A stretch of DNA of 46,171 bases from IMG/VR virus record IMGVR_UViG_3300033064_004238, positions 1 to 46,171 of that record, one strand, 5' to 3'. Made by a program: the position numbers and the translations under genes. Source of the stretch: a virus. The notes under the pieces are model-generated. The model did not search any database. It was not told where the DNA came from and saw nothing but the letters and a program-made list of their open reading frames with translations. Below, one piece after another: positions 7,379-42,523 of this stretch (positions within the stretch are counted from its first letter, which is position 1; each line of letters opens with the position of its first letter).

Positions 7379-7897
7379 ATGACACACGTAGAATTTAAAA
7401 AGAGTGCTCTGTATTTTCATGCACAAACACTTAAAAATTTAGGAGAAGATCCTAGTAATTGCTTTTTTAAACCTGTACTTGAAGGCAATAAGCCACAAGT
7501 AGGAAATAAACGATATATCTTTTTGTTTAAAGCAGAATTAGATCAGATGAGCAAATTTGATACTTCTTATTTTGAGTTTGCTAAAAGATATGATGACGGT
7601 TTATGGGGACCAAAAAGTCCAAAACGTGAATTATACAAACTTATACATAACGGTTTTCCTCATGAGTATGCTGTTGCAACTAATAGTGATTTAGATAGCT
7701 TTGTCATCCCTACTGAAGAGTTAATTCTAGTAATGGATTACACACCTTCAACTGTAGACTTAGATGCTCCTTTAACTTTAGAGCTAAACTTTGAGACACC
7801 AGAAATTAAAGTACCAGAAACAAGTCGTATCTTTGATAAACTCCTGACAGAAGCAACTTTAGGAGATCTTTTATATGTACTTAAATCTTTAAAATAA
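7379..7897 (+). CDS. hypothetical protein (172 aa)
   Basis: No family recognised. Residues 1-100 contain clustered aromatics (FFKP, YIFLFK, YFEFAKRYDDGLWGP), and the C-terminal third is acidic with Thr/Pro-rich spacers ending in helical RIFDKLLTEATLGDLLYVLKSLK. Its last base is the first base of the next ATG (TAATG), coupling it to the ATPase. The position between the helicase and the Sak4-like/SSB pair points to DNA replication or recombination, but nothing in the sequence gives a reaction. Confidence 0.65.
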   Translation: MTHVEFKKSALYFHAQTLKNLGEDPSNCFFKPVLEGNKPQVGNKRYIFLFKAELDQMSKFDTSYFEFAKRYDDGLWGPKSPKRELYKLIHNGFPHEYAVATNSDLDSFVIPTEELILVMDYTPSTVDLDAPLTLELNFETPEIKVPETSRIFDKLLTEATLGDLLYVLKSLK

Positions 7898-8586
7898 TGG
7901 CACATTCTGTTCTAATAATTGGTGAATCAGGTAGCGGTAAGTCTACAGGTATTCGTACTTTAAATTCTGAAGAAACAGTTATTTTTAACACAGCAAATAA
8001 ACCTTTACCGTTCAGAGGATGGAAAAATAAATATTCTGCTGAAAATAAAAATCTTTTATCTCTTAACGATATTGTTGGAGATGATGGACGTGTAAATTTT
8101 GCCAAATTTGGTAAAATATTTACACGTGTAAATGAACGCAAAGAGATAAAGAATTTTGTCATTGATGATTTTCAATATCTTTTTGCGTTTGAGTATTTTG
8201 CTCGCGCTAATGAAAAGGGTTATGACAAATTCACTCAATTGGCTAAGTCAATGAGTGATGCTGCTATTGCACCTATTACATTACGAGATGACCTTATGGT
8301 CTATTTTTTAACACATGCTGAAGAAGCATACGATACGGACGGCAACCGTAAAGTGAAAGCAAAAACAATCGGTAAAATGATTGATAACGTGCTAACACTT
8401 GAAGGTCTCTTTGCTATTGTACTTTTTGCAAAAGCAAAAAAGACAAAAGAAGGAATTGACTATTTGTTTGAGACTGCAACTAATGGTGAAAATACCTGTA
8501 AGTCTCCAATGGATATGTTTAAAACCAGAGAGATCGCCAATGATTTACAACTTGTAAGACAAACAATTATTAACTACGAAAACTAA
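7897..8586 (+). CDS. Sak4-like RecA-core ATPase (AAA_24 type)
   Basis: 229 residues starting almost directly with the P-loop GESGSGKS (9-16). Walker B is NFVIDDFQYL (86-95, D90-D91). The short, single-domain RecA-like fold with an N-terminal P-loop is characteristic of Sak4-type phage annealing proteins and related nucleotide-binding proteins. It is followed after 2 nt by an SSB-like gene. Sak4 proteins depend on a partner SSB for strand annealing, so the pairing supports the call. The exact subfamily needs a profile comparison. Confidence 0.8.
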   Translation: MAHSVLIIGESGSGKSTGIRTLNSEETVIFNTANKPLPFRGWKNKYSAENKNLLSLNDIVGDDGRVNFAKFGKIFTRVNERKEIKNFVIDDFQYLFAFEYFARANEKGYDKFTQLAKSMSDAAIAPITLRDDLMVYFLTHAEEAYDTDGNRKVKAKTIGKMIDNVLTLEGLFAIVLFAKAKKTKEGIDYLFETATNGENTCKSPMDMFKTREIANDLQLVRQTIINYEN

Positions 8587-11553: not shown

Positions 11554-11967
11554 ATGGATGTTAAAAACATTAAAAATAGAAGATTAAAAATTACTGAAGA
11601 ATATTATAATTCAATTTTAAAAATGATAGATTCTCCTAATAAAGAGGATCTAGTTTTATCATTTCAGCTAATTGAAAATATGAATTATGAGGATAATTTT
11701 ATTTATATTTTATTTTTATATAGAGCTTGTAGTGAAAATCAAAGAAAACTATGGGGTGAAATTTCACCTAAAAGTGGAAAGTACTGTGAAGACTTAAAAG
11801 CTAAACATACTTTAAATGTAATTGGATTACATAAAACACTTATTGGGAAAGTAACTAAAGAACAAGAAGAATTTGTCAATAAAGAATTTGGTAAAACACT
11901 TCAAAGTACTATGTATAACTATGGATATCATTTTATAGAAGAAATAAATTTAAAAATCAAATGGTAA
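11554..11967 (+). CDS. hypothetical protein (137 aa)
   Basis: Helical, charged protein, no family recognised. Notable stretches are a Phe/Tyr-rich centre (FIYILFLYRAC, ~49-59) and KSGKYCEDLKAKHTLNVIGLHKTLIGK. Its first codons (VKNIKNRRLKI) are encoded by DNA that resembles the end of the DUF6915-like gene 220 nt upstream (23 of 27 positions match), so the start may have been shaped by a duplication. It overlaps the metallopeptidase/VWA gene by 7 nt and could belong to that module. Confidence 0.65.
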   Translation: MDVKNIKNRRLKITEEYYNSILKMIDSPNKEDLVLSFQLIENMNYEDNFIYILFLYRACSENQRKLWGEISPKSGKYCEDLKAKHTLNVIGLHKTLIGKVTKEQEEFVNKEFGKTLQSTMYNYGYHFIEEINLKIKW

Positions 11968-13109
11968 CATACGGAGAAAGTTTAGCTAAAATATCAAAAA
12001 CATTATTATTAGAACAGCCCTTTTACGGGCTTTTTCTTATTTCTTTAAATAAGACGTGGAGAGAAGATTTACCTACTGCAGGAGTTAGTATTAACGGTAT
12101 TAACCAGCAGTTAGCAATTAATCCAGAGTTCTGGAATTCTATTAATGATGATGTAAAGAAAGGAGTATTAATTCATGAGCTTATGCACATCGCATTTAAT
12201 CATTTAATTACTCGTAGTAATTATGAAGATAAAAAGCTTTTTAATATTGCAGCAGATCTAGAAATTAATCAATACATAGATAGAGACTGGCTACCTGCTG
12301 AAGGTATATTTTTGGATACATTTCCTACATTATCACTTCCTATAAGAGCAGGTACAAACGCTTATTATAAATTATTACAACAGGCTTATGAAGATGGTAC
12401 ATCTCCAGAACTTGATAATTTAATGGAACAAGGTGATTCACACTTTACATGGGGTGAAGGTGGAGAAGAATTATCAGAATCTGAAAAAAAGCTTATACAA
12501 AAACAAATAGAGCATCAGTTGAAGAGTATTGCGGAAACTTGTAAAGCACAAGGTAATATTCCTGGACATTTCTCTGAACTTATTGATAGCTTGTTTAATG
12601 TTGAAGCTCCTAAATTTGATTGGAAAGGTTATCTAAGAAGATTTGCTGGTAATAGTAATAAAATCTACACTAAGAAGACCCGCCGCAAACCAAATAAACG
12701 GTATGACGGTAATCCTGCATTAAAAATTAAAACAAAAAATCATGTATTATTGGCTATTGATACTTCCGGATCTGTTAAAACATCCGAACTAAAAGAATTT
12801 ATTGCTGAGATGCATCATATTTATAAAACAGGATCTGAAATTACAGTAATTCAATGTGATACAGTAGTTTATGATCCAGAACCTTTTAATCCAAAAAAAG
12901 AATTTAAAATACAAGGTAGAGGCGGTACGTCATTCCAACCTGTTATTGATCATTTTAATAGTACTCGTAATAGATATACATCTATTATATATTTCACTGA
13001 TGGTGAAGCTTATCCTCCGGACAATGTTCGTTGTAAAATTTTATGGGTTCATTCTTCCGACTCAAATATAAATGAAGATCTACCGGGTCTTAAAATTAAA
13101 CTTAACTAA
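11961..13109 (+). CDS. DUF2201-like protein: putative zincin metallopeptidase domain + VWA domain
   Basis: 382 residues. The N-terminal domain has a zinc-protease-like helix, HELMH (72-76) with H81, preceded by LEQPFYGLFL and AINPEFW, as in DUF2201 predicted metallopeptidases. The C-terminal domain is von Willebrand A-like: MIDAS DTSGS (267-271), then the GRGGTSF loop (319-325) and a late TDGEA segment. This architecture pairs with MoxR AAA+ ATPases in bacteria, and the next gene is exactly that, overlapping by 1 nt. MoxR/VWA pairs act in chaperone-like assembly or metal insertion. The phage target is unknown. A terminator-like hairpin lies inside its 5' end. Confidence 0.85.
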   Translation: MVTYGESLAKISKTLLLEQPFYGLFLISLNKTWREDLPTAGVSINGINQQLAINPEFWNSINDDVKKGVLIHELMHIAFNHLITRSNYEDKKLFNIAADLEINQYIDRDWLPAEGIFLDTFPTLSLPIRAGTNAYYKLLQQAYEDGTSPELDNLMEQGDSHFTWGEGGEELSESEKKLIQKQIEHQLKSIAETCKAQGNIPGHFSELIDSLFNVEAPKFDWKGYLRRFAGNSNKIYTKKTRRKPNKRYDGNPALKIKTKNHVLLAIDTSGSVKTSELKEFIAEMHHIYKTGSEITVIQCDTVVYDPEPFNPKKEFKIQGRGGTSFQPVIDHFNSTRNRYTSIIYFTDGEAYPPDNVRCKILWVHSSDSNINEDLPGLKIKLN

Positions 13110-14311
13110 TGTCACAAGTAAATTTAAACATAACCGAGGTAAAAGACTTTTTACGTCATATTATTACTAATAATCAAAGCATTCAAATACAAGGTAAAAA
13201 TCCTGTTGCTGTTGAGATTGTTGGTGATTCAGGTATTGGTAAGACATCAACCGTCATGCAACTTGCTGAAGAATTAAACTTAAGCGTTGTAAAATTAAAC
13301 CTTTCACAAATTGAAGAAATTGGTGATTTGGTTGGTTTTCCAGTTGTTCAGTATGAGATACAAGAAAAAATGACAACATCGGATCCAAATGAAGTACGTA
13401 CACCGCGTAAAGCATGGGTAAATGAAGCTGCGTTTCAAGAATATCTAAAATCTGGTTTTAAAGATACGGGCAAAACTCGGATGTCTTATGCAGCACCCGA
13501 ATGGATTGCTGGTAAAGATGAAGGTGGTATCCTTCTTCTTGACGACTGGAACCGTGCCGATAGTCGTTTTATTCAAGCAACTATGGAACTTGTAGATCGT
13601 CAGACCTATATTTCATGGAAACTTCCAAAAAACTGGCATATTCTACTAACTAGTAATCCTGACAACGGTGATTATATAGTTAATAGTATTGACAGTGCAC
13701 AACGCACCCGTTTTATTACAGCTAATCTTAAGTTTGATATTGATATCTGGGCTAAATGGGCAGAACACGATCAAATTGATGGTCGCTGTATTAACTTCCT
13801 TCTTATGCATCCTGAATTAGTTACGCAGGTGACTAATGCTCGTAGCATCACTACTTTCTTTAATTCTATTTCTAGCATTGAGAACTTTGAAGATCAGTTA
13901 CCTCTTATTCAAATGATTGGTGAAGGATCTGTTGGTGGTGAATTTGCAACTATGTTTACTATGTTTATTAATAATAAACTAGATAAAATTATTACTCCTG
14001 AAAAAGTAATGTCACTAGAAGATTGGGGCTCCGTTAAAGGTCAATTAACTAGTGTTATTGGTGCAGATCATAATTATAGGGCTGATATTGCTTCTGTAAT
14101 TACACGGCGTTTAATTAACTATAATTTGAACAATGCTATTAAAAAGCCAATAAACGAAAAGATAATTTTAAGATTATCAGACTTAATGACTGACGACATG
14201 TTTACTAATGATTTAAAATATACAATGGTAAGAGAAATTATCAACGGTAATCGTTTAAAGTTTCAAAAGCTTTTAATGAATCCGGAAATTGTTAAAATGA
14301 CTATCAGCTAA
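13109..14311 (+). CDS. MoxR-family AAA+ ATPase
   Basis: 400 residues. Walker A GDSGIGKT (39-46), Walker B ILLLDD (141-146) with the MoxR-type continuation WNRADSRFIQATMELVDRQTY, sensor 1 TSNP (181-184), and arginine-finger candidates in AQRTRF (197-202). The Walker B acidic pair is D-D instead of the usual D-E. MoxR ATPases use ATP to remodel partners presented by VWA proteins; the VWA partner is directly upstream with a 1-nt overlap, and a third coupled gene follows. Target unknown. The beginning (NITEVKDFLRHIITNNQSIQIQG) is a helical lead-in. Confidence 0.88.
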   Translation: MSQVNLNITEVKDFLRHIITNNQSIQIQGKNPVAVEIVGDSGIGKTSTVMQLAEELNLSVVKLNLSQIEEIGDLVGFPVVQYEIQEKMTTSDPNEVRTPRKAWVNEAAFQEYLKSGFKDTGKTRMSYAAPEWIAGKDEGGILLLDDWNRADSRFIQATMELVDRQTYISWKLPKNWHILLTSNPDNGDYIVNSIDSAQRTRFITANLKFDIDIWAKWAEHDQIDGRCINFLLMHPELVTQVTNARSITTFFNSISSIENFEDQLPLIQMIGEGSVGGEFATMFTMFINNKLDKIITPEKVMSLEDWGSVKGQLTSVIGADHNYRADIASVITRRLINYNLNNAIKKPINEKIILRLSDLMTDDMFTNDLKYTMVREIINGNRLKFQKLLMNPEIVKMTIS

Positions 14312-15511: not shown

Positions 15512-16471
15512 ATGAACATAACTTTAAGTTATTCAGGTCTAAATAAACTATTATTTAGTCCAAAATTATATTACAAACATTATATTCTAGGTGAACGTGA
15601 GGAATCTATTGATAGTTGGGCTGTTGAAGGTAGTATCGTAGATGCTTATTTAACTGATCAAAAAATAGAAGACAAGTTTGCTATTGTACCAGGGACATTA
15701 CCTACAGAAAGTACAAAGAAATTAGTGTATAAGATTTATAAGGAAAAAGAATCTGAATATATTAGTAATAATCTACCTGATTATCACGAAGATATTTTAA
15801 AGAGTCTGCAAGATATAAACTTACATCAGGCTCTTAAAACAGATACCCAAAGACTTGAAAAAATCTTAAGTGATGATGCTAAAAATTATTTTAAATTTTT
15901 ATGTGACTCTGAAGGAAAGATAGTAATTGACACGGAGACACTTGAAAAAGGTAAAGCTAAAGCTGATTGTGTAAAACAAGATGCACTGGCTTCATCTAGA
16001 TTACATCTCAATGGTTCTGATTTTAATAATGAAGTTATAACACAAAAAACGTTAAGTCTTCAGCTTAAGAAATATCCCGGAATAACATTAAGAGGTATTC
16101 CAGATAGAATAATTATTGATAATAAAAAAAGGATTATCACCGTCATAGATATTAAAACTACAAGTAAAGGTTTAAATAACTTTTATCCGGATACTTATGA
16201 GTTTTATAATTATGGATTACAAAGTGCAATCTATGTTGTACTAGCTCATGGAGATAAATCTATGGAGGAATATAAAAATTACTCTGTAAACTTTGAATTT
16301 TTTGTTATTGATAAATATGATAATTTTTGTTTCTTTCCGGTAAGTACAGCTTTGATGTCTCATAATCACAGTGAATTAGACGCCGCTTTAAATAAAGCAA
16401 TGTATCATTTCAATAATTCTGATTTTAATCGTCCATATGAATACAGAAGTGGTATTTTTGTCTTATCATGA
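15512..16471 (+). CDS. PD-(D/E)XK nuclease (RecB/Cas4-like fold)
   Basis: 319 residues. The nuclease signature is LRGIPDRIII…ITVIDIKTTSK: D198, D213 and K215 are the metal-binding and catalytic residues, followed by the YNYGLQSAIY helix (Q237), which corresponds to the RecB QxxxY motif. The early AVEGSIVDAYL segment (37-47) matches the first RecB-family motif, with Asp at the usual His position. This is a conserved component of crAss-like replication modules, probably an exonuclease acting with the Sak4/SSB pair. It overlaps the next gene by 4 nt. Confidence 0.88.
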   Translation: MNITLSYSGLNKLLFSPKLYYKHYILGEREESIDSWAVEGSIVDAYLTDQKIEDKFAIVPGTLPTESTKKLVYKIYKEKESEYISNNLPDYHEDILKSLQDINLHQALKTDTQRLEKILSDDAKNYFKFLCDSEGKIVIDTETLEKGKAKADCVKQDALASSRLHLNGSDFNNEVITQKTLSLQLKKYPGITLRGIPDRIIIDNKKRIITVIDIKTTSKGLNNFYPDTYEFYNYGLQSAIYVVLAHGDKSMEEYKNYSVNFEFFVIDKYDNFCFFPVSTALMSHNHSELDAALNKAMYHFNNSDFNRPYEYRSGIFVLS

Positions 16472-28354: not shown

Positions 28355-31300
28355 TTAGCAAATGTTTCTATCTTGAGCCTCAATAAACTGCTCCACTGTA
28401 ATACCACTAGACTTTGCAGCATATTGATAGTCTTGAATTAAAAATTCTAATCCCGTAAAGTTATTATCTTGTACTTCTTTAGATAAAGAGTTAAACCATT
28501 TAGCAAGCTTTTCAACAGGTCCGGCAGTAATTGCAAGCTTAGAGTTTGCCAGCTCTACCACCGGTGTTTCCGATGACATCTGAGCTAAGGTAGAACCTTT
28601 TGTACTCGGTAGCTCTTCTACTGAATCCTGAGATAATTCTTTAGGTTGCATACCAAGAACTTCTACCGGACGTAGACCATCATATTTAGTAAGTCCTTCG
28701 CCAGTTTCTATATCTGTGTATACAAACTTTTTAAGAGCTTTGTCAAATTTTGATTCAATTCCATAATTGTCAAGAAGAAGATCATTTGGTTGACCAAGCT
28801 TTTTAGGCATATCAGATGTAATTTGAATAGCACTAGCTTGAACAGCAGGTGCACTTTCAGAGTACTGCGGGTTTGTAACCTCTGCTTTTCTAAAAGGGTT
28901 TACTTCAGGCTTAATTGGAACTGGACCAAACAATGACCAACCTCCAGCAAACTGTGCTTTAGATCCTAAAAATTCAATTTTTTGGTATTCAAAATAATTT
29001 GCAAATACTTTATTAGGAAGATTACCATTCTTATCTACACTAAAAGGTTTAGTGCTTTTATTACCAAAACGTTTAACTGAAATAAGTTTGTACAATGTAT
29101 CACCTACTTTGACAACAGGATAACCAATAGCCACTTTTTTAGTACCAGAAAAAAGAGTTGTTGCCTCTTTTAATTTTTGCAGTTTCTCTTGAATATTATC
29201 CATTTTTACTTCTGAAGACGTTTCAGTCTTAAAAACTTCACCTTCATCAGTATAAAAAGGATTACCTTTTTCATCATAAAGAAGTTCTCCACCAATTGTA
29301 AGCATGACATTGTCTTTTGGCCAAATGTCTACAATAAGTTTAGTGGGTGTAACCTTTACAAAATCAAGCTTTGTAAACGGTGAACTTTCAGGAGATTTAG
29401 GAATATAAAAAGAATTTTTTGCTGAAGTAAGATAGTTAAAGGTAAAATCAGAAAGTAGAGTTTCAACATTTTCCCCGAAGAATTCTTCTAGTGAAGACTT
29501 TAATTCAGTCTTAGTAGCTTTAGTAAGAGCCTTTGCAGACTCAAAGTATGAACCAATAAGAATCGGAGGAACAATATTTAAAAAGCTACCAGACTTAAAC
29601 TGTAGACCATCCTTAACAATCAAGTATGCAAGAAGCTTATCAAAGTGTTTTCTTGCTTTCATATCAGAAGCAAGTTCAAGAATAGAGTACTGAAGCTTAA
29701 GCTTTTGATCTTCGTTTATTTTAGTCCAGCTGTTAGACTCAATCAAATCAAGAAGAGTTCTATTCTTTTCACCGTCATAAGGTGAAGCAATTAGGTAATT
29801 ATTAATAAAATAGTTTTTCGGATATCTCTCTCTTAACGTTACAAGAGAATGAATAGCAGACTCTGCTGAGTTTCCATCAGCATAAATAGTTGAATTACTA
29901 AGAGCTGCACGAAGTGTTGGGCTCATTTTACCATGCTTAAGAAAACCTTTGATGGTAAGATAACTAAGAATAGACTTTTCAAGCTCCTCCTTAAAGATAT
30001 TTCTACGTTGAGTATTTTGAATATTAACAGAATTCATAACCATGTTAGACATTAAGATAAACACGGGAGACTTACTAATAAGAACACTTGGCAAAAGATT
30101 CCGAATATCCTTATAAATATTAAGAACTGCTGTATACATCTCAGAAGACTTTACATACGCGTCAAAGTCATAAGGGCTATTTTCAGAAGTTAAAAGATCA
30201 ATGCTATATTGAATATCATTAAAAGACGCCATGTCTGGTGCAAATCCTTTAACAAGCTTTACAACTTTAGCAATTGCACCAAAGTATCTAGTCATTTCAA
30301 GCTGATCAGCAAGTGCTTCCAAAACGGCAATGTTCAAACTAGGACTTTGCCCACTATTTGCAATAGCTTCTTCAAGATCTTTAGTTGTAAACTCCTTAAC
30401 AACTTGTTCACCCTCAGCCAGTTTCGTAGACTCTCGGGCTATAAGATTTTGAAGAATAACTTTTGGTGGCTTAGAGGTTCCGCTAAATAAATTTTTATTA
30501 TTAGCAATTTCCTTATAGTACTCTTTAACTTTAGGCTGGTTGACAAATAGAATAGAATCTTTAAGAGGTACACCAAGTGCTACCAGATGACTAACAACAC
30601 CTAACGCTTCAATGCTAAGACCAAGTCTTTCGGCCATTCTTTCTTTAGCATTATCCACCATTGCCGTAATAAGAGTAGAAAGAACAAAGCCCTTACGCAC
30701 ATTATCGGTATTAAAGCGATCAACATAAGAGTAATAACTTTTTCCGTTAATCATAAAACCCTTAAACTTTTCTGTAAAATAATTCTGACCACCTTTTGCA
30801 AGGAATGACCATTGAAGAAGTGCGTTTACGGTAGGACCGATACCTACAGAACCCTCTTTGTTACCTTTACGAGCTTTAAACTTACCAAGAGCACCAGATG
30901 TATTATAGTTCTTTTCATCAAAGAGTAGCTCTGCAACTTCAGGACTGAACGCAGCAACTGAATTTCTAAGATCTTTAAGAACATCTTGAAGAGGTAAAAT
31001 ATCTGCAGGTTGATATGCAGGAGGTAAATCACCACTAGTTGTCTCTGGGTTATAAAGAAGATGTGACTTAGCATCAAGAATCATGTTGTTAAGAGCACCT
31101 TCGTATTGAGGTACACCCTCAGCATTTTCTTTTTCTAAATAAGCTTCTGCTGTTATAGGAAGATTCATTTTTTTAAGAATAGCTTTAACATCTGCACTTA
31201 AGATACCTGTAGCATTAAATGTTTCTATTTCAACAGACAGCGCTTCTTTAGAAGGATTAAGTGTAGAGTAAACAGATTTAAAGCTGCTATTTTCTCTAAG

Positions 31301-34300
31301 AGTAAAGTTTATAAAATCTTTAAACTTACCCTTAGATGTTTCTGCTTTACCATACTCTCTAACTTCAATTTTACCTGTAAACGTTTTATCAATATACCAC
31401 TGCTTAATGGAAGCATACAATTTGTCAATATCAAAGTCAGCACTGGAAATTTCAATAAGTTCTCTAGGAGAAACAATTACAGATCCAAATTCTGCAGGTA
31501 AAAAATCTACAACCTTAATAAACATTGCAGAGTGCTTATCCTGAGTAGGAATACGTATACCAAGCATTTCAGCAATAGCTGCTGGAATTTCACCATCTTC
31601 AAAAAGACCAGCGATCTCTCTAAAGTGTGCTGGAAGTAAAACCTCTGCATACTTTCTACCAGTAGGCTTACCATCTTTTCCGTACTCTGTTACATTAAAA
31701 CGAAGTCTATCACGTACAAGATCACCTTCTTTTGAACCCTTTACAGAATTAATGTTGTAGTCTTCCTCAGAAACATTTCTTGCAGATAGAGCAAGCTCAT
31801 TAAGATTAGCATTTTTCTTAAGTCTAGATCTTCTTACAACTCTACCAGTACCTCCAATTACTTCTCTTACTACCCCAATATTCCAATCCGATAGAAGTGT
31901 CAAGGTATGACCGGGAACCTTTTCTTGAAGAACACCCTTGCTCAAGTATGAAAGCATCATCTCAACAAATACATCTTGAACAATAGGATTGTTATGATCG
32001 TATTTAGGATTGTTATTTTCATCTAGTTCAAAGTACTCTGCTTGTGATCCACGACCACTAGCTATAAGGGTTTCTTGAGCATACTTGTACAGTTCTGAAA
32101 GAGTTACGTTTACAGTTTTAGAAGAACTATTTCCGTATTGATCAGGCTTACCTGTATCAAAAATCTTATTACGTTTCTCTGTGTACTTTAAACCATATCT
32201 TTTACCAGACAAGGCTTCATACATATCAGAAATTTCACCAAGAGATGTGGATTTACCGTTAAGTACAACTTTAACGCTTCTATCAATGTCAAGATTAATA
32301 ATTTGCTTGTTTTGAGAAGGATCCGTAATTCTCATTTTGTTTGAAGGATTCTTCTGTTGCAAGAACATAAGACGCATATCAAGCTTAGATGCTACTGCTG
32401 TCTTTTCAGCAATTGCTTCTACAAGAGATGCCGCATCATTATAGGTATTCTGCTTTGAAAGTTTAGATGCAGATTCTGGAATAAGTGCGGATAATGTTTC
32501 AGTATTGTCCTGCTCATATTTTTCAAGAGCTTCTCTAATATTATGAAGTTCTTCATAACCTGCAAGAGGTGCCCAGTTACCAGAAGAATTTTTTACAGAA
32601 GTAAGTTCTTTAGTGAGTACAAAAGCAGAAGTCTTTACATATTTACCGTCACCGATAGGTTTGTAATAAACAACTTTAATTGAATTAAGCATTGTCCCTC
32701 TTTGAATCATACCCTTACTACCAAAGATCTCATCTTGAGTCAAGGGAACACCCTGGTCAATTTTATCTAAAACTTTAGCAAAGTTTGTATCAAGCTCACC
32801 AAAACCGAACTTCAAGTGACGAAAAGACTTAGGTGTAATCCACATCTGAGCATCTGCTTGCTCCTTAGTCTGTGGAGTTCCTTTAAGTGCTGACATGTAC
32901 TTAGCTACAAACAACGGATCTTTAATAGTAAACAAAGACATTTCTTTAGTTGCGTGGTTAATACCAAGTTTTGGATCAGTAGCTTCTGTATAAGCCGAGT
33001 AACCACCAGCACCCTCACCTTTGTTTCTTTTTACTTCGTCAATAGCATCTTTAACGTTTCTTACTGAATCACCTTTAGTAAGTTGATTCCAGGCAAACGA
33101 ATTCATAAGATCGTTGATATAAAACTGATAAATGTTTTGTTTAAGACTCTTAGCTACAAAACCGCTGTATACACCGTCAGCACCATGACCTTCTCTAAAT
33201 ACAACAGGTAAAAAACTTCCTTGGGGAATGCTTATCCTGGTTGCACCCTGACTAATGGTAGACTTTAATCCACCCTCTTCTACAAGAACCTTGATAAACT
33301 CATCCGCTTCTTTTTTAAGAAGTTCAAATGCTTTCTGAGTAATATTTTTTGCACCCTCAAAACTTGTCAAAGCTTCCTCAAAAGTTATTGTTGAGTTCTT
33401 AGCTTGTTCTTGTAAGTGCTCAATAAAAGCTTCTTCCATGTATGGAGCCATCTTAGAAAACTTAAAACCTCTTTCTTTTCCTATGTGATAATCTTTAATA
33501 AGATTCACACCACGTTCTGCTTCAACATGAGCTCTTTGAATAGAATCAAACTCTCTTTCAATTTCATTACGAATAGCTTGAGCGCCTTTTTTTGTAAGCT
33601 TTCCTTCTGCACCAAAATATTTAGTGATAGGAAGATTTACAATGTTAGATGTACTTGATGCTTCAAGAATAGAGGGAATATGGGTAGATGTTGCAAAAGT
33701 TTCTAAAACACCTGCAACTTCATTAAAGTAAGTCTTCTTATTCAGAGTAGAACCAAGAGCCATCATGGAAGCCAAAAACTCTACAGAGTCCATATCACCA
33801 AATGTTTTACCTCCTTCTTTGTTTACTTCAAGATATTTGTTTTCAAATAACTCTCCCTCTTTACCTACAAGAAATCTCTTAGCAATGCCGTCAATTCTTT
33901 CCAAGCTAAGACCTGAAAGAATAGACATAAACTGAGGATTAGCCAGAAGAAGATTGTTTTCATAGAAAGGATTAGCTGTAAGTTCACCGTTAAGAACAGC
34001 ATTCTTAAGATTCTCTACGGCAATAAGTGCATACGTACTATACTGGTGATTCCAAACAGTTTCACCTTCAGCATTCTTCCAGCTTGTAGAAGAAATAGTT
34101 TCATCAAAGAATACATTTGATGAAGCAATATTCTTTAAACGAGTAAATGAACCCTCTTGAGTTTCATTCTCATCTGTCTTATCTATTACCTGTACAAACA
34201 AATCTACCCCGTCTGTAAGGTTACGCTGAATTTCTGTAAGATCCCTAGCACTAATTGGCTGAATTTCACTAAAACTATTTACAAAAAAAATGTCTTCCGG

Positions 34301-37300
34301 TGTAGCATTATCCGTAGTAACTCTTGCAGAGGCTAAAGAGTAATTAACCAAAGATGGATGTAAGTGAATACCTGTATGGTTTGCAATTGATCTAATCAAA
34401 AAAGAAACTTCGGCAGGACTAAGATCTTTACCTTCTTGAATAGTTGTTGCCAACTTTTCTATAAATGATGCACCAGCTTTTCTAGATGTCAAACTTCTTG
34501 TAGTATAAGCTTGCTGCCAAAGAGTAAGTTGTACTTTAGAACGGTCTTTACGATTTGCATCATAAATAAGAACATTACCATCATTATTATTAACAGCAAT
34601 AAACTTGTAGTTAACTGAAAACTGTTCAAACCCCTTCATGATCTTTTGGTATAGATCAATATTTTTAGTAGGTCCCTCAACTATACCGTCTTCAATAGTA
34701 ATACCAGTATCAGAAAAGAATGTATTAACTACAGCTTCTGTATCGGGATTACCCTGAGCATATTTAAACAGTCTCATTAAAGCTTTTTTCTGATCTGTTT
34801 GACCAGCAAGAGCATTAAGAAGACCATTGTAAACATGACTTACCTCTACAGATTGTACCATAGGAGTACCATCTGAAAATACAGTGTTACCAAACTGATC
34901 AGAAGTATTTCTAGTAATACTACCAAGATATGTTCTTACAAATACTGATAGTCCAGCAAACCCACCTCTTTCAGAAATTTTATTTTCAGCTACACCATCA
35001 CCTTCAGCATCTGCTATATCCTCATTTACATCTTCATAGAATCTTTCTTGGTATCCAGCAGCAGACATAAAAGAAAGGATAGACTCCTTAAGGTCAGCAG
35101 TCTTTTCACTAACTATGTAGTAAAGATCGTCAATCTGATTTCTTACAGAATCAAAGTCTTCACCAAATCTTTCGGCGTATGTTTCATAGTTTTCTGGAAT
35201 CTCTAAGTTGTAAAGAAGCTTGTACTCTTCAATAATACCATCAAGAATTTCTTCTGTAGACTTTTGCTCACTAGTAGACTTAATATTTACTACTGCTGCA
35301 ATATCTAAAGTAAGTTTAATAGCTGCGGGCCCACTAAAAAATCTAGTGTACTTTTTTGCTACGGGCTTACCATCAGCACCCGGCTCTTCAATAATTAAAG
35401 GTCTAGCAAGAATTTGTTTAAATGCAGGAAGCATAACTCCAGCATTTGTAAAGTCTCTTGTAAATCTATTTGTAGCTACGGCTGACTTAGCAAACTTACC
35501 CGAATCAAAGTCTTGGAAAAGATTAACAATATCATTACGACTAGAAAGACCAAGCAGTGCTCTAATCCACTCAACAATTCTTGCAAATAAATTTTTATGT
35601 GCTACATCTGTAGGAAACTTCTTGTCTTTCTTCCAAGACTCAAAAGCATCAGCAAGATATTCTTCATAAACAAGATATTCCATCTGAACAGCATTAAATT
35701 TGCTGTAAAACTCAGGGTTAGTAGCTCTAAGTTCAGCAATAGCTGTCTCTAAAGTTTTACCTTCTCTTCTAAGAATCTGAAGTTTTTCTCTTTTAGCACT
35801 AGCAAGAAGCTTGTTAATCTGTTGATCATTAAGAATAAGTCTGAATAGACCGTGAAAAGCTTCGTGGTATTTAGCTGGAGAAATTGGTGATACTTGAATA
35901 ACACCATTTACTTTAATACCACCTGCAAGTGCCTGAACGCTTGCATAGAACCTACCAAGAGTAATTTGACCAGTTTTAAAATTCTTCTCAAGAGTTTCAA
36001 GCTGTTCTACAGCAAAATAATCTGGTAGATTGTTTGTAACAAACTCAAGGAAGTCTTTCATAGATTTAGCATCTTCAGGAGTAAATCCAGGAGCTTGCTT
36101 AAATGAAGATAAAGATTCAGCACCATCTTCAATATCCTTAATGTTTTGCAAAATAGCTTTTACTTTAGGATTGGCATCTGCCGTTTTAGAAGCCTCTGCT
36201 TTTGTTTGACCAGACTCTATAGCCGCCATGTAAGCTTCTTTCCAAGCAACCTTTTTTTCATTATTAAGAGCAGTAAAACCTAATACTTTTTGTTCTGATA
36301 CTCCTCCTTTAACACTAGTAGATGGTTGAGTAGTTCTAAGTTCTTCTACTATTTCTGCAAGAGTATCAGCATGAGAATGATAACCACCTTTTACAATAGT
36401 TCCATCATTATTTGTAACCTCCATAGGTTTATAATACAATAATGTTTTACCATCTAGTTTACCTTCATTAATTTGTTTAAGTATCCACTCTCTTCTTAAA
36501 GGTTTAATATTTTGGTGTTTAGTACCCATTAACCAATCTCTATAAGCTTGGTCAGCTTCATTAATAGTATTAAATACAGTAATATTATCAACTTTAGATT
36601 CTATAAGATTACCTTGTTTATCTCTGCGTTTTGATCCTATAAAAGGATTTCCAAACTGTTCTTCAGTATTACCAACTCTTGTTACAACAATTCCTTTATC
36701 TGTATAAGGTGTTGTAGCATCTTTTATATCAGCCCATCTGCTAAGATCTTTAACAATAGGTTTAACACTAGTAGATGATTGAGTAGTTTTAAAATCTTCT
36801 GATAACCCAGACAAAGTAGCTAATACTTGACTCTTAGTATGTTGTTCTACCACATCTTCAGAAGAAGCTTGTCTGGCAGGCTTATCTTTAAGATCAGCAA
36901 ACGCCGTAAGCCTAGTTGCTCCAACAACTTCAGGTGCAACATTGGTAACAAAGTTTCCTTCTACAATATCTCTAGCTGTAATGGTTTGTCCCAAAGCAGC
37001 TTGAAGAGAATCTTCAGTAACAGTAACCTTTGTTTTAGTTTTGTTATTAGTCCTAGCTTCAGGCGACGTTCCGCTTGCTCTTTCTAAAGCAGCTAGTTCT
37101 GCATTAGCTTTTGCTAGTTTTTCTTTTGCAAGAGTTTTGTATTTATTATACTGCGCATTTACAAATTCTTCAGCTTGCTCATAAGAATCAAAAATAGTAA
37201 CTTCTACTTCAGCTCTTTTAGTAAGTTTTCCATCTGCATCAAGTTCTGCAGGCTTCCAAATTTTTGTAATTACTTCAACGCCTTCTTGTGTAGTGTCTTT

Positions 37301-40300
37301 ACGCTCGTCTTTAAAGTCTCTTACATCATAGATATTTCCAATATCGTGTTTTTGTCCAACATTAAATAGTGGATGATTAGCATTTGGATTCATTCCAGAC
37401 TCTACACCATCTAATTGTCTTTGAGATTTTTCTATATTAGCTTTTTGCTGCTCTAGAACTTGGGAAGTTACTTCTGCCTGAGGCTCTTGAACATCTCTAC
37501 CTGCTTCTTGCGTAGTATCATAACCTTGAGATATAGTTTTGTTATTAGTCCTAGCTTCATCAAGAGCTTGATTCATTACAGAAACAAGATCTGCCGCAGA
37601 ATTAAGACCAGTAACATCTACAGTTTTTTGAAATACTGTGGTAATACCCTTAGCATCTTTTGCAAGAGTAAGTACGAGATCTCCGCTAGAGTTTAATGAT
37701 GGTATAATGTAAAGGTTGCTTGTAGGCAATGCCACAAACATTTTATCCAAAATCCCCGTATTGAAGCCATCATTGTTTTCTGTCTGATCTTCTACAAAAG
37801 CTTCTGAATTTGCTTTAACATATTCAGAACGCTTTTTAAGACTATCTAATACTCCTGTAACCTGACCTTCTGTAAGTCTTGGAAGCTTAAGCTCAATAAA
37901 TACAATGTTTCCGTTTGGCTGTCTAGCAGCTAAAACATATCTACCAAGAGAAGAAAATCTCTCTTTGTTTACCTCAACCTCTTCTTCAAGACGTGCTCTT
38001 TGCTCAGGTGTGTACTCACCACTAGTAATATAACGAGTGCTCGAAGTAATAGTACCTCTAACTTTTTGTTTACGTTGTTCAATAATAAAGTATCCACCGT
38101 CTAACTGGTTAAATGCTAACTCATTAATTGTAGCACTTCCATAAGCATAAGAAGATCTACCCACATTAAATATTCCTAGCTCTTCTTGAATTTGGTTTCC
38201 TGTAAGAACAATCTGTTCACCATTATTTTCATTAAGAAGCTTTTCGGCATTTTTCCAAAGAGCAAAGCCGTTGTAAAGGTTTTTTTTAAAACTTCTAAAA
38301 TTATCAAAAGGATTACCTTTAATATTTGAAAACTCTTGAAATAATTCAAAGCTTATATCCGCAGCCTTAATAGTTTTACCATTAACATCAAGGAAGTCTA
38401 CATCCTGAAGTGTATCAAGCCAACCAATAGTTTTACCATTAAATTGTAACTCAATATAAATTTTAGGAGATTTTTCTATAATGTAAGGGTTTGCTGCTTT
38501 ATCTCCAATCTTAAGATAACCTTTTTTAGACTTATCATAGTTAGGATTAGGTCTGATTACAACAGTAAGACCTGCAGCTAATTCGTTCTTTGGGGTATTA
38601 GCTAAAATAATACTTAGTCTACGTTGAGAATCTTCTCTGGTTTCATTACCCTCTCTGTTAGCATGTACAGAGTTATACTTATCTACACTAAGCAAGTAAC
38701 TTCTATTAGAGTCTTTACCGTCTACTCTGTTTCCGGGAAGTAATGATCTAGACTTTGCAAAGATTTTTTCCTGACCGGTTTCAACGTTTACAGCCTTAAG
38801 TCTAACATTAGGTGCAGACATCTCGGAAGGCTTACTAACAATTCTGTAATCGTTAATACCATCGTTCCAAATTTGACCTGTAGTAAATACAGTACCATCA
38901 AATACAAACGTATCTACAGTTTCTTTGTTAGTTTCAGCATAATTAACCTGAGCATCTACAGCATCTTGAAGAGTTTCAAAAATTGCATCTTGCTCATTTG
39001 TAGACAAAAGATTTCTGTTTTCAAAATTTACTACTTCATAAGTACTAACATCTCCTTTACTTGTAGAAACCACAAAGACTCCAGAAATAGGAGTAACTCC
39101 AGATACCAGCTTTTGATCAGCTTTAAGTTTAGAATTATCAAATACTCCACGATCCTGGTACTTAGACATCATATACTTAGTGTCTAGACCAACAGAAGAA
39201 AGATTATCAATTACAAAAACTGAGTCTTTATTTTTAGATAGCCAATTAAGAAAATCATTAAACTCATACTCTTCATTAAGACCTGGATTATCCGTTAAGA
39301 ATCTTTCTTGTAAAGAGAGAAAAGCATCGTGAATGTTTTTACCCTGTTTGCTACTTAACCAGCTGACAAAACTTGGCATCGGATTACCCGAAGCCTTTCT
39401 TCTAGCAGCTTCATCAGTATATACCTTATTAATAATATCTGTAAGATATTTACCTAGCGGTGTAATAAACTGAAACTCTCCAGTTTCTTCATTTTTTTGA
39501 ACCAAAAACTCTTCTGTAACTTCAAAGTCTTTCTCAGTTACATCTGTAATATTACCAGCCTCGTCTGTTATAGGTACTAAAGGATCAACATTCTTAATAG
39601 AGTTCTTATTATACTGATCAATTAAAGTTTGAATTTTATTGTATATCTCTGTGTTAGGAAGAACAAAACCATCTTCTGTAACAAAATTTTGAGGTATTGT
39701 ACCATTAAACATAAACTCAAAATACTCTGTACCGTCAGAAATCTGTACACCAATCTCAGCTAGCTCATTCACAAGCTGATTTCTTTCGGATTCATTTACA
39801 AAAGCTTTTGCACCCTTTTCAAAATGTTTTTTACGATCAGCAAAGGTCTGTTTCCAAATCTCCGCACCTCTTTCTGTACGAGCAATCATCTCTGCAGGAT
39901 TGATCAAAGTATTAATTGTATCAGCAATAGCTGCTGATTCATCAGAAAGCAAGTAATAATCTACAAGACTTTCAAACGAATCTTTAATAGATTGTTCACT
40001 AGTAGCACCTAAAGTTTTTACATATTTTTCATACTGCTTATATAGCTGCTGATATTCTTTCTTATTTAGCTTTCCCTTTTTAGAACCCTGCTTATTAAGT
40101 GCACTATACTTTAATGCTTCCAGATTAGACTGGAAAACATCAAGAGCATTGTATCTAGCTTTCTTTTCTTTAAGTAAAACTTTTTGTTCTTCTGACAAAG
40201 TATCAGAACCTTCAAGAAGATCTATTTCCTGTTTAAGAAGTTGAATATCTACTTTTCTGCTCTGCTCTGAAAACATTACAGAAAAGTCTGAATATGCAGC

Positions 40301-42523
40301 ATTTGCAATATCAGACTTAAGAGAAAACTCATTAGTAATTCTTTGCATACGTTGAGCATTCTCAACAACCATGTCCTTTGCAAACACCACTTCTTTTTTT
40401 GCTTCTTCCCAAGCAAAATAATTTACTAGCTCTTGATTGTATTGAGCCGGCTCTTTATCTTTATTAAACTTGTTTGGGTTATAAGGCTTGCCAAATCTTG
40501 ATTCAGTATCCTTATAATTCTCCTCAAGCTTATTCATTACTCCAAGAAGCTCATCAATCTTTTCAGCACCTTTTTCTGTAGTACTACTAAATAGTTTATT
40601 AAGCTCTTCAGGTGTAAGACCTTTCATATCTTCAAGAAACGACTTGTAATATTTATAGTTACCAGAAACAAACAAACGATAAGCATTAGTTCTTACAGCC
40701 TGTCTTTTTGTATCAAGAAAAATCTTTTGATCACCTTGAGCTTGAGCCACATTCATTTCAAAAAAAGCTTCTTTCTGAGTTACAAGATTTTCTTTGTTAA
40801 GAAAGTCAATGTAATCATTAGTGCTAAGAGCAGAATTATTAATACTTTCTGCAAACTCTTTAAGAATTTCGGCTTTTTGTGCTGCTTCTTTTCGGTTAAT
40901 AGTCTTATCAAAAATTGCAGTTGTAGCTTTTCTGCCACCAGAAATAACCCCACCAGTTAGAAAGCCTTGAAGAAAGGTGTCAAAACCTTGTCCACTAAAA
41001 ACATTTTCAGAAGCAGACTTTTTTACAGATTGTCCTAAAATGTTATTTGCTGCAATAAGTTGATCACCATAAATAGTACCGTAGTATTCTCTAAGCTTTT
41101 TATCCTTATAAATAGAAGTATAGTAATCAACTGTAGAACCTTGTATAAACTCTTGACTAAGCTCTTGAATACCTTCAGACATATTTGCTTTAGTATATTT
41201 AAAAGCAAGATTAGCCCACTTTCTTGGATTCTTAATATCTTTTAAGAAAGAAACATCCTCTACCCGTGCTACAGATTTTAAAGCATCGTCAGCACCCTTA
41301 GCTAGCTGTTCAGAAATTTCCTCTGCAGATTTTACTACAAGTCTTTTACCACCGGCACTTGCAATGTCATCAGCTTTAGATAAATATTTACCAAAACCTC
41401 TAAACGCATTATCAAAAGTCATTTTATTTGTTATATAAATAAGAGGAACGTTTACAAGACGGTTTGTAAGTCCTGCTTTGCTTGCAAACACTTCAATTTC
41501 TTGAAGTTCATCAGGGGTAAGATCCCGTCCTACCTCATTTCTTTTTATTGCTATTGCTTGATCTCTTGTATCATTATATCCAAAACCACCTTCCATGTTT
41601 GATTCATCAAGGGTCAGGTTAACAGTTCGTACATCTCTATAAAAATTTCCAAAACCTGTAGCAATTGTTGCATAGTCTTTAAGATTATCTGCAGATTTAA
41701 TACCTTTTGCCCAAGTAACAGTATTAGGTACTAAAGACATACCTATAGCAGAACCAGCACCTTTAGCGGCTTTATAAAAATCTCTTGCTGCATCTACAGT
41801 ACCAAAAGCTTTCCATGCAGATCTTAATTGTTTTCCGGCTTGACCTAATCTTAAAGCAGCAACCCCCCAGGAAGCTCCACCAGTAGGAGCGCCAGCATAA
41901 AATAAAAGTGCCTCTTCAATTGCAAGCTCTCCTAGTATACCAACAGTATATGCGGCATTAAGACCAAAATTATTTATCCAAGAACCAAGACCTTTACGGC
42001 TAGATTGACCAATAGCAACAGCATTACCAAATTCATCGGCAAGCTGTGTATCATCAAAACTAGGATTACCTGAAAGAAGGTTACCCATAGAACGTACACC
42101 AGCAGTAAGACCTAATCCGGTAAGCCTTAGAATTTGTGGTGTTGCCCTTGATACGTCATCCCAAAGAGTACTATTCTTATTATAGTAATTTTCGTTATCA
42201 GCATATGGGTAAAACCCAAGCTCTTTAAACTTAGGATGATTTACATATCTATCATAGTTTACTTCTGCAGGTTTAAATGTCTGAGGAGATGCTTCATATA
42301 ATGAACGTGATGGATTATTACTTAAAGCGTATTTATCAAAAGCTTTAATCCATTCAGGTCTAGTTTGTGAATCAGCTGATGCAGCAAGTTTTCTTGTAGG
42401 TTGTCCTGTTATTGGATTAACAAGATTCATTCCTTGTGTAGGAGGGGTAAAAATTCTTTCTGGAAAATTTGCACCAACCTGAATAGGTGTATTGTCAACC
42501 AAAGGGTTTTGAGCTTCTGCCAT
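28355..42523 (-). CDS. giant virion protein: cargo, zincin metallopeptidase and virion RNA polymerase (4722 aa)
   Basis: 4722 residues in one uninterrupted frame. N-terminus (1-260): hydrophobic, Gly-rich helices; ~550-900: long helices; 1656-1829 and 1913-2072: two repeat-flanked modules, the second with a DUF4326-like domain (GNPF … YRDWL … GYHSHADTL). Zincin HEAFH (2220-2224) with EEYLADAFE ~65 residues later. RNA polymerase region: FREGHGADGVYSG (~3110), VVYYKPIGDGKY (~3288) and catalytic-type DFDID (3696-3700), the crAss-like counterpart of NADFDGD. In phi14:2 such a polymerase (2180 aa) is packaged and transcribes early genes; here it seems fused to a protease and cargo domains. Self-cleavage by the zincin is possible but unproven. 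Confidence 0.88.
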   Translation of the reverse strand: MAEAQNPLVDNTPIQVGANFPERIFTPPTQGMNLVNPITGQPTRKLAASADSQTRPEWIKAFDKYALSNNPSRSLYEASPQTFKPAEVNYDRYVNHPKFKELGFYPYADNENYYNKNSTLWDDVSRATPQILRLTGLGLTAGVRSMGNLLSGNPSFDDTQLADEFGNAVAIGQSSRKGLGSWINNFGLNAAYTVGILGELAIEEALLFYAGAPTGGASWGVAALRLGQAGKQLRSAWKAFGTVDAARDFYKAAKGAGSAIGMSLVPNTVTWAKGIKSADNLKDYATIATGFGNFYRDVRTVNLTLDESNMEGGFGYNDTRDQAIAIKRNEVGRDLTPDELQEIEVFASKAGLTNRLVNVPLIYITNKMTFDNAFRGFGKYLSKADDIASAGGKRLVVKSAEEISEQLAKGADDALKSVARVEDVSFLKDIKNPRKWANLAFKYTKANMSEGIQELSQEFIQGSTVDYYTSIYKDKKLREYYGTIYGDQLIAANNILGQSVKKSASENVFSGQGFDTFLQGFLTGGVISGGRKATTAIFDKTINRKEAAQKAEILKEFAESINNSALSTNDYIDFLNKENLVTQKEAFFEMNVAQAQGDQKIFLDTKRQAVRTNAYRLFVSGNYKYYKSFLEDMKGLTPEELNKLFSSTTEKGAEKIDELLGVMNKLEENYKDTESRFGKPYNPNKFNKDKEPAQYNQELVNYFAWEEAKKEVVFAKDMVVENAQRMQRITNEFSLKSDIANAAYSDFSVMFSEQSRKVDIQLLKQEIDLLEGSDTLSEEQKVLLKEKKARYNALDVFQSNLEALKYSALNKQGSKKGKLNKKEYQQLYKQYEKYVKTLGATSEQSIKDSFESLVDYYLLSDESAAIADTINTLINPAEMIARTERGAEIWKQTFADRKKHFEKGAKAFVNESERNQLVNELAEIGVQISDGTEYFEFMFNGTIPQNFVTEDGFVLPNTEIYNKIQTLIDQYNKNSIKNVDPLVPITDEAGNITDVTEKDFEVTEEFLVQKNEETGEFQFITPLGKYLTDIINKVYTDEAARRKASGNPMPSFVSWLSSKQGKNIHDAFLSLQERFLTDNPGLNEEYEFNDFLNWLSKNKDSVFVIDNLSSVGLDTKYMMSKYQDRGVFDNSKLKADQKLVSGVTPISGVFVVSTSKGDVSTYEVVNFENRNLLSTNEQDAIFETLQDAVDAQVNYAETNKETVDTFVFDGTVFTTGQIWNDGINDYRIVSKPSEMSAPNVRLKAVNVETGQEKIFAKSRSLLPGNRVDGKDSNRSYLLSVDKYNSVHANREGNETREDSQRRLSIILANTPKNELAAGLTVVIRPNPNYDKSKKGYLKIGDKAANPYIIEKSPKIYIELQFNGKTIGWLDTLQDVDFLDVNGKTIKAADISFELFQEFSNIKGNPFDNFRSFKKNLYNGFALWKNAEKLLNENNGEQIVLTGNQIQEELGIFNVGRSSYAYGSATINELAFNQLDGGYFIIEQRKQKVRGTITSSTRYITSGEYTPEQRARLEEEVEVNKERFSSLGRYVLAARQPNGNIVFIELKLPRLTEGQVTGVLDSLKKRSEYVKANSEAFVEDQTENNDGFNTGILDKMFVALPTSNLYIIPSLNSSGDLVLTLAKDAKGITTVFQKTVDVTGLNSAADLVSVMNQALDEARTNNKTISQGYDTTQEAGRDVQEPQAEVTSQVLEQQKANIEKSQRQLDGVESGMNPNANHPLFNVGQKHDIGNIYDVRDFKDERKDTTQEGVEVITKIWKPAELDADGKLTKRAEVEVTIFDSYEQAEEFVNAQYNKYKTLAKEKLAKANAELAALERASGTSPEARTNNKTKTKVTVTEDSLQAALGQTITARDIVEGNFVTNVAPEVVGATRLTAFADLKDKPARQASSEDVVEQHTKSQVLATLSGLSEDFKTTQSSTSVKPIVKDLSRWADIKDATTPYTDKGIVVTRVGNTEEQFGNPFIGSKRRDKQGNLIESKVDNITVFNTINEADQAYRDWLMGTKHQNIKPLRREWILKQINEGKLDGKTLLYYKPMEVTNNDGTIVKGGYHSHADTLAEIVEELRTTQPSTSVKGGVSEQKVLGFTALNNEKKVAWKEAYMAAIESGQTKAEASKTADANPKVKAILQNIKDIEDGAESLSSFKQAPGFTPEDAKSMKDFLEFVTNNLPDYFAVEQLETLEKNFKTGQITLGRFYASVQALAGGIKVNGVIQVSPISPAKYHEAFHGLFRLILNDQQINKLLASAKREKLQILRREGKTLETAIAELRATNPEFYSKFNAVQMEYLVYEEYLADAFESWKKDKKFPTDVAHKNLFARIVEWIRALLGLSSRNDIVNLFQDFDSGKFAKSAVATNRFTRDFTNAGVMLPAFKQILARPLIIEEPGADGKPVAKKYTRFFSGPAAIKLTLDIAAVVNIKSTSEQKSTEEILDGIIEEYKLLYNLEIPENYETYAERFGEDFDSVRNQIDDLYYIVSEKTADLKESILSFMSAAGYQERFYEDVNEDIADAEGDGVAENKISERGGFAGLSVFVRTYLGSITRNTSDQFGNTVFSDGTPMVQSVEVSHVYNGLLNALAGQTDQKKALMRLFKYAQGNPDTEAVVNTFFSDTGITIEDGIVEGPTKNIDLYQKIMKGFEQFSVNYKFIAVNNNDGNVLIYDANRKDRSKVQLTLWQQAYTTRSLTSRKAGASFIEKLATTIQEGKDLSPAEVSFLIRSIANHTGIHLHPSLVNYSLASARVTTDNATPEDIFFVNSFSEIQPISARDLTEIQRNLTDGVDLFVQVIDKTDENETQEGSFTRLKNIASSNVFFDETISSTSWKNAEGETVWNHQYSTYALIAVENLKNAVLNGELTANPFYENNLLLANPQFMSILSGLSLERIDGIAKRFLVGKEGELFENKYLEVNKEGGKTFGDMDSVEFLASMMALGSTLNKKTYFNEVAGVLETFATSTHIPSILEASSTSNIVNLPITKYFGAEGKLTKKGAQAIRNEIEREFDSIQRAHVEAERGVNLIKDYHIGKERGFKFSKMAPYMEEAFIEHLQEQAKNSTITFEEALTSFEGAKNITQKAFELLKKEADEFIKVLVEEGGLKSTISQGATRISIPQGSFLPVVFREGHGADGVYSGFVAKSLKQNIYQFYINDLMNSFAWNQLTKGDSVRNVKDAIDEVKRNKGEGAGGYSAYTEATDPKLGINHATKEMSLFTIKDPLFVAKYMSALKGTPQTKEQADAQMWITPKSFRHLKFGFGELDTNFAKVLDKIDQGVPLTQDEIFGSKGMIQRGTMLNSIKVVYYKPIGDGKYVKTSAFVLTKELTSVKNSSGNWAPLAGYEELHNIREALEKYEQDNTETLSALIPESASKLSKQNTYNDAASLVEAIAEKTAVASKLDMRLMFLQQKNPSNKMRITDPSQNKQIINLDIDRSVKVVLNGKSTSLGEISDMYEALSGKRYGLKYTEKRNKIFDTGKPDQYGNSSSKTVNVTLSELYKYAQETLIASGRGSQAEYFELDENNNPKYDHNNPIVQDVFVEMMLSYLSKGVLQEKVPGHTLTLLSDWNIGVVREVIGGTGRVVRRSRLKKNANLNELALSARNVSEEDYNINSVKGSKEGDLVRDRLRFNVTEYGKDGKPTGRKYAEVLLPAHFREIAGLFEDGEIPAAIAEMLGIRIPTQDKHSAMFIKVVDFLPAEFGSVIVSPRELIEISSADFDIDKLYASIKQWYIDKTFTGKIEVREYGKAETSKGKFKDFINFTLRENSSFKSVYSTLNPSKEALSVEIETFNATGILSADVKAILKKMNLPITAEAYLEKENAEGVPQYEGALNNMILDAKSHLLYNPETTSGDLPPAYQPADILPLQDVLKDLRNSVAAFSPEVAELLFDEKNYNTSGALGKFKARKGNKEGSVGIGPTVNALLQWSFLAKGGQNYFTEKFKGFMINGKSYYSYVDRFNTDNVRKGFVLSTLITAMVDNAKERMAERLGLSIEALGVVSHLVALGVPLKDSILFVNQPKVKEYYKEIANNKNLFSGTSKPPKVILQNLIARESTKLAEGEQVVKEFTTKDLEEAIANSGQSPSLNIAVLEALADQLEMTRYFGAIAKVVKLVKGFAPDMASFNDIQYSIDLLTSENSPYDFDAYVKSSEMYTAVLNIYKDIRNLLPSVLISKSPVFILMSNMVMNSVNIQNTQRRNIFKEELEKSILSYLTIKGFLKHGKMSPTLRAALSNSTIYADGNSAESAIHSLVTLRERYPKNYFINNYLIASPYDGEKNRTLLDLIESNSWTKINEDQKLKLQYSILELASDMKARKHFDKLLAYLIVKDGLQFKSGSFLNIVPPILIGSYFESAKALTKATKTELKSSLEEFFGENVETLLSDFTFNYLTSAKNSFYIPKSPESSPFTKLDFVKVTPTKLIVDIWPKDNVMLTIGGELLYDEKGNPFYTDEGEVFKTETSSEVKMDNIQEKLQKLKEATTLFSGTKKVAIGYPVVKVGDTLYKLISVKRFGNKSTKPFSVDKNGNLPNKVFANYFEYQKIEFLGSKAQFAGGWSLFGPVPIKPEVNPFRKAEVTNPQYSESAPAVQASAIQITSDMPKKLGQPNDLLLDNYGIESKFDKALKKFVYTDIETGEGLTKYDGLRPVEVLGMQPKELSQDSVEELPSTKGSTLAQMSSETPVVELANSKLAITAGPVEKLAKWFNSLSKEVQDNNFTGLEFLIQDYQYAAKSSGITVEQFIEAQDRNIC
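36308..36335. repeat. direct repeat B, copy 2 (28 nt)
   Basis: Starts TTTAACACTAGTAGATG and ends TTGAGTAGTT. Matches 36761-36788 at 27 of 28 positions (a single G/A difference). Encodes TTQPSTSVK on the - strand. The distance between copies is 453 nt (151 codons), so the frame is kept. Confidence 0.9.
36761..36788. repeat. direct repeat B, copy 1 (28 nt)
   Basis: Partner of 36308-36335, encoding TTQSSTSVK. Together they bracket the segment for the DUF4326-like domain of the 4722-aa protein. Similarity fades just outside (a CTTCT follows in both), suggesting an originally longer duplicate. Confidence 0.9.
37036..37060. repeat. direct repeat A, copy 2 (25 nt)
   Basis: TAGTTTTGTTATTAGTCC followed by TAGCTTC, identical over 25 nt to 37534-37558. 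Encodes EARTNNKT on the - strand. The spacing is 498 nt (166 codons), in frame. Confidence 0.9.
37534..37558. repeat. direct repeat A, copy 1 (25 nt)
   Basis: Perfect partner of 37036-37060 (residues from E1656 and E1822 of the 4722-aa protein). The enclosed ~166-codon segment encodes a Gln/Glu-rich helix, a small domain (NHPLFNVGQKHDIGNIYDV…) and a Lys/Ala-rich helix. Confidence 0.9.

Follow-up and report, generated by a model that had tools for sequence, protein, structure and literature searches.

The DUF4326-like segment bracketed by two 28-nt direct repeats in the giant gene of this crAss-like phage is very probably an exchangeable single-domain cassette, and the repeats standardized intragenic linkers by which such cassettes are reshuffled through homologous recombination. 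Judging from the sequence comparisons, environmental crAss-like phages share a pool of these cassettes in their giant virion RNA polymerase (RNAP) gene. The window, i.e. the whole stretch of DNA analyzed here, is a 46-kb IMG/VR record (46,171 nucleotides) to which named phages are only distantly related.

The gene that carries the cassette (28355..42523, minus strand) encodes a virion RNAP/zincin protein of 4722 residues, as identified by tblastn to Crassvirales RNAP genes. Its RNAP core, with the DFDxD motif, resembles that of crAss-like phages both in a tblastn comparison to 63 crAss-like records and in the alignment; the catalytic motif reads DFDID in the window (residues 3696-3700; 31424..31438, minus strand). 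C-terminal of the cassette region, the HEAFH zincin motif (35852..35866, minus strand; YHEAFH, residues 2219-2224, of the HExxH type) aligns weakly with crAss-like homologues (best E 0.001) and is found in most environmental relatives. By analogy with the virion RNAP described for crAss-like phages (PMC12386605), the giant protein is presumably carried inside the virion and injected. With a profile built on the RNAP core, 80 environmental crAss-like loci were retrieved; single-protein scans yielded no close relatives of the window, and neither the cassette nor its region matched anything in annotated phages. Elsewhere in the window, a gene for a DUF2201 metallopeptidase/VWA protein adjoins one for an AAA_5 ATPase (11961-14311), the two resembling a MoxR/VWA pair, and a gene of the uracil-DNA glycosylase superfamily (3357-4076) lies in the replication region.

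The two repeats reported in the initial annotation were confirmed. They occupy 36761..36788 and 36308..36335 on the minus strand, are identical at 27 of 28 positions and start 453 nt (151 codons) apart, in frame within the gene. In gene sense, copy 1 on the 5' side of the cassette encodes TTQSSTSVK (residues 1913-1921), and its core (36764-36784, minus strand) differs at one position from the 21-mer described below; copy 2 on the 3' side encodes TTQPSTSVK (residues 2064-2072), with the exact 21-mer as its core (36311-36331, minus strand). Between them lies the DUF4326-like cassette (36336..36760, minus strand; residues 1922-2062). When synonymous codons were shuffled 60 times with the protein kept, repeats in which one mismatch was allowed reached 24 nt at the most, against 28 nt observed. 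A second pair just upstream, to which the initial annotation did not refer, consists of exact 26-nt in-frame repeats encoding EARTNNKT, 498 nt apart (37534..37559 and 37036..37061, minus strand). This repeat had no match in any other IMG/VR viral contig, the segment between its copies had no relatives among the fetched loci, and Pfam searches with this segment and with the whole giant protein gave just weak, chance-level matches. Relatives that align to residues 1000-2700 number up to 46 before position ~1660 and up to 72 after position ~2125, with few between, and the gap between these blocks is 64-281 residues in 25 relatives versus 359-498 in the window. The window therefore has extra sequence where both repeat pairs sit.

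Comparison of the relatives shows, at the level of sequence, that matched sites hold a cassette in some phages and a different one, or none, in others. Both kinds of allele that the initial annotation said to look for, one with a single repeat and no domain and one with a different domain between the same repeats, were found at a different site of the same gene; these alleles come from other phages and other sites than the window's exact site. Upstream of one such site, at which a 438-nt DUF7831 cassette is present in L040 only, L039 and L040 share 99.1% identity; the filled allele has the direct repeat and the empty allele a single linker. The same site is also empty in L041 and L048 and holds another cassette in L042, L044 and L047. 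A second site, preceding the sequence SGMTALR, is empty in L029, L031, L154 and L158 and filled in L032, in L087 (NADAR) and in L020 (tandem cassettes).

Distant phages also carry near-identical cassettes, and at differing sites. Over 470 nt, the window cassette shares 96.2% DNA identity with one in L112, which is located C-terminal to the RNAP core at the end of the giant protein, in a phage whose RNAP parts share 22% amino acid identity with those of the window; this copy in another phage and at another site supports the mobility by short-repeat recombination that had been proposed for the domain. With L223 the identity is 90% over 496 nt. Here the homology extends 16 nt beyond the second linker into a cassette of the KEGVSELFES type and then ends, leaving in the window the remnant GGVSE (36292..36307, minus strand), so the right junction of the window is not purely linker-to-linker. 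The corresponding cassette in L224 is 89% identical and is followed by a NADAR domain.

That DNA similarity between phages breaks at the linkers is also apparent from their overall comparison. The 104 non-redundant linker contexts yielded 44 pairs that were alike on one side of the linker only (≥85% on one side, ≤55% on the other) and one pair alike on both sides (121 versus 7 with redundancy kept). In loci picked by their RNAP, not by the motif, DNA similarity ended internally at 290 points, 24 of which (8.3%) fell within 25 nt of a linker, compared to 0.18% of random positions. Since related contigs are not fully independent, these junction statistics are effect sizes rather than exact probabilities; all phages compared are metagenomic contigs, some of which may represent one sample reassembled in IMG/VR.

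The linkers belong to two families. The core of linker A, ACTCAACCATCTACTAGTGTT / ACWCAACCATCTACTAGTGTT (TQPSTSV), occurs in frame within long ORFs in 42 IMG/VR contigs and not once in 257 Gb of prokaryotic genomes; a scan with a large set of TQPSTSV encodings found 103 stretches. In 30 whole records, its copies lie on a single strand within a few kb, and a reversed control pattern gave no occurrence. Linker B, ACACAACAAACTAGTGAGGTT / ACWCAACAAACTAGTGARGTT (PTQQTSEVE), occurs in 29 contigs and flanks its own cassettes (L132-L160); in L126, an A and a B linker are adjacent. In-frame direct repeats elsewhere in the giant gene of relatives proved to be the same words, PTQPSTSVK or PTQQTSEVE. Homology to the giant RNAP was detected in 70 of 94 linker-bearing ORFs, partly through the cassettes themselves, many of these ORFs being cut by locus ends, and two neighboring giant genes showed homology to none of the 94. 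Thirty distinct cassettes of 71-271 residues have strong linkers at both ends, and their flanks are homotypic: 17 are A/A, 12 B/B and one mixed.

A nearly invariant, sharply bounded DNA block, together with the palindrome ACTAGT common to both linker families and the precision of the insertions, could also mark the recognition site of a site-specific recombinase, an integron-like integrase or a homing endonuclease. We consider this unlikely, as a scan of 20 cassettes revealed no recognizable integrase or transposase and as two distinct linkers act alike and homotypically, which is what homology rather than one enzyme predicts.

If the repeats were a mere flexible peptide linker, conserved by selection on the protein, the domains would have been fused by slow, ordinary evolution. 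TQPSTSV is indeed short, polar and probably disordered, like linkers between domains, and all copies share one frame. The initial annotation had, however, taken the identity of the repeats to lie at the DNA level beyond that of the protein, and the codon test bears this out: of 45 distinct contexts, all in AT-rich ORFs no shorter than 250 residues, 39 encode the peptide by the identical 21-mer, which codon usage would lead one to expect in 1.9% each. For comparison, the conserved peptide YHEAFH, likewise from this gene, is encoded in 29 ways across 62 contexts, and the RNAP peptide DFDID, which has few codon choices, in 8 ways across 59. The linkers are also far more similar than the cassettes they flank; in L096, L125, L227 and L104, they are identical at 22-29 of 30 and 25-26 of 27 positions, with DNA identity in the cassette interiors down to 56-60%. 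In addition, recent transfers at 96-98% identity stop at the linkers. The comparison shows near-invariant linker DNA between unrelated domains, always in one frame, and on the codon test we rejected purely protein-level conservation as very improbable.

Insertion in the manner of a transposon with target-site duplication would likewise leave a segment flanked by direct repeats and one copy in the empty allele, but target-site duplications copy the local target, whereas here one repeat sequence, at 18-28 nt long for such a duplication, recurs at unrelated sites and in unrelated phages, and the cassettes scanned held no recognizable transposase; given this common linker, we dismissed the explanation as scarcely credible. 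Assembly chimeras at short repeats, which are conceivable because all data are metagenomic and repeats can mislead assemblers, were rejected as equally far-fetched, since reading frames stay open across thousands of codons, arrangements recur across datasets (L042/L044/L047, L095/L107, L105/L108, L116/L121) and the larger k-mers of assemblers usually exceed repeats of 21-28 nt.

Pfam and NCBIfam provide names for some of the cassettes: ART-PolyVal, NADAR, DUF7831, 2OG-Fe(II) oxygenase (AlkB-like) and the A1S_2505 family, as well as AAA_18 (P-loop) by a weak match. Others we labeled SLOG-like or ASCH-like on our own reading, and many remain without a family name. The order of domains varies, with combinations such as DUF4326-NADAR, DUF4326-ART, SLOG-like-DUF4326 and DUF4326-A1S_2505, and relatives carry several effector domains per giant protein; the window itself has one such cassette. 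A module recurring in L049, L095, L107, L226, L228 and L229, EISSNAKGLAAALTNPTELAKSKGN, appears NADAR-like by eye and had no confident Pfam or NCBIfam match. In L194 and L197, a cassette of the FIGFG type contains an extra insertion of about 100 residues inside the domain compared to L019, possibly a nested module.

The assignment of the window cassette to DUF4326 held in part. Against the Pfam model (PF14216) the cassette scored 13.9 bits, below the gathering cut-off of 25, and this single model had no match in the whole records. A profile comparison with hhalign, in which the cassette family, aligned from 23 members, was matched to a six-member alignment of the annotated DUF4326 protein of phage MinS1 and five actinophage proteins, gave a probability of 95% (E 3.7e-8). 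Foldseek searches of viral models (BFVD) with a structure model of pLDDT 74.7, an earlier one of pLDDT 60 having been too poor, matched several DUF4326 proteins, with a best probability among them of 0.92 and none at E ≤ 0.001. The same model found no match in the PDB, and a sequence search of the PDB returned nothing useful. The profile comparison favors a DUF4326-like domain, and the matches among viral models may point the same way; against it, besides the sub-threshold Pfam score, stand the canonical cysteines (CWC...CH), which are invariant in the MinS1-type alignment and absent from the cassette family, where the histidine is kept. Iyer and co-workers assigned DUF4326 to the rhodanese-phosphatase superfamily, proposed phosphates of ADP-ribose derivatives as its target and reported fusions to SLOG, Macro and NADAR (PMC9503650), with which the neighborhood of the cassettes in our sequences agrees. 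The cassette domain, lacking the cysteines, may have another chemistry or may be limited to binding. The initial view that such a domain has no obvious place in a virion protein did not hold up: NAD/ADP-ribose domains are known from giant virion polyvalent proteins (PMC5512222, PMC9503650), so a DUF4326-like domain is plausibly placed here.

As a mechanism, we propose that the linkers of co-infecting phage genomes pair and recombine by single-strand annealing or crossover, which would insert, delete, stack or swap domains, the common codon phase avoiding frameshifts. We infer this from the single codon phase and from the length of the linkers, whose shared identity of ~21-28 nt is close to the minimal segment for pairing by a phage annealing protein, 23-27 bp for Red-beta compared to 31-34 for RecA (PMC3945230), a figure that is Red-beta's and not Sak4's. 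In the window, gene content suggests that a Sak4-like single-strand annealing protein (7897..8586, plus strand; phrog_2872, E 1.1e-61; PF13479) probably mediates linker recombination, with an Exonuclease VIII-like nuclease (15512..16471, plus strand; phrog_412, E 6.6e-11) as its candidate partner. The cassette domains, many of them NAD+/ADP-ribose-related, would be delivered alongside the virion polymerase and act as effectors against the defenses of the host, and selection would act on the variation among them.

Polyvalent proteins, phage mosaicism and the set of domains encountered here are already known. In the exchange of phage tail fibers, collagen-like or other repeated segments within the gene serve as crossover points; here the gene is a virion RNA polymerase, and the cargo consists of effector domains instead of receptor-binding tips. 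The polyvalent proteins that phages and conjugative elements encode (PMC5512222) are likewise giant, multidomain and virion-associated, with ADP-ribosyltransferase and other effector domains, and for one kinase locus Iyer et al. (2017) suggested that cassettes might recombine (PMC5512222); when that text was searched for the terms, neither crAss phages nor linkers nor shuffling came up, and our analysis adds direct evidence from alleles as well as a DNA linker that is conserved. Polymorphic toxin cassettes, a parallel named in the same study (PMC5512222), also recombine variable domains into a main locus, but here the exchange appears to take place between homologous giant genes and at several internal sites, beyond the C-terminus. 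Viral NAD+/ADP-ribose conflict systems combine an overlapping set of domains (DUF4326, NADAR, SLOG, Macro), and the Macro, NADAR, SLOG and Nudix domains of phages are typically standalone (PMC9503650), whereas in the giant gene such domains form modules within a virion RNAP protein, with interchangeable linkers at their boundaries. In mosaicism by relaxed homologous recombination, annealing proteins similarly recombine short identities into mosaics (PMC2327257, PMC3945230), yet in our case the identity is intragenic, lies between domains, preserves the frame and is nearly invariant across distant phages. In the open-licence papers searched, we found no account of crAss-like phages shuffling domains, nor any of domain-cassette exchange via nearly invariant intragenic DNA linkers in a virion RNAP gene.

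Phage mosaicism is usually described between genes, where its joints are hard to see; in the giant RNAP gene, the joints are explicit and intragenic. Each joint can be recognized by one of two short words of DNA, so any contig bearing such a word can be read as a record of exchange. This would allow a direct test of the trade of phages in counter-defense domains, open a route to listing new effector domains among the unnamed cassettes and provide a natural example of frame-safe domain assembly. Tentatively, and with slightly less than even confidence, we suggest that crAss-like phages draw on a shared pool of interchangeable anti-defense domains, that the linker sequence may be maintained as a recombination adapter, selected for exchange (evolvability) and not for flexibility alone, and that the virion polymerase would in this way be a re-programmable effector-delivery protein.
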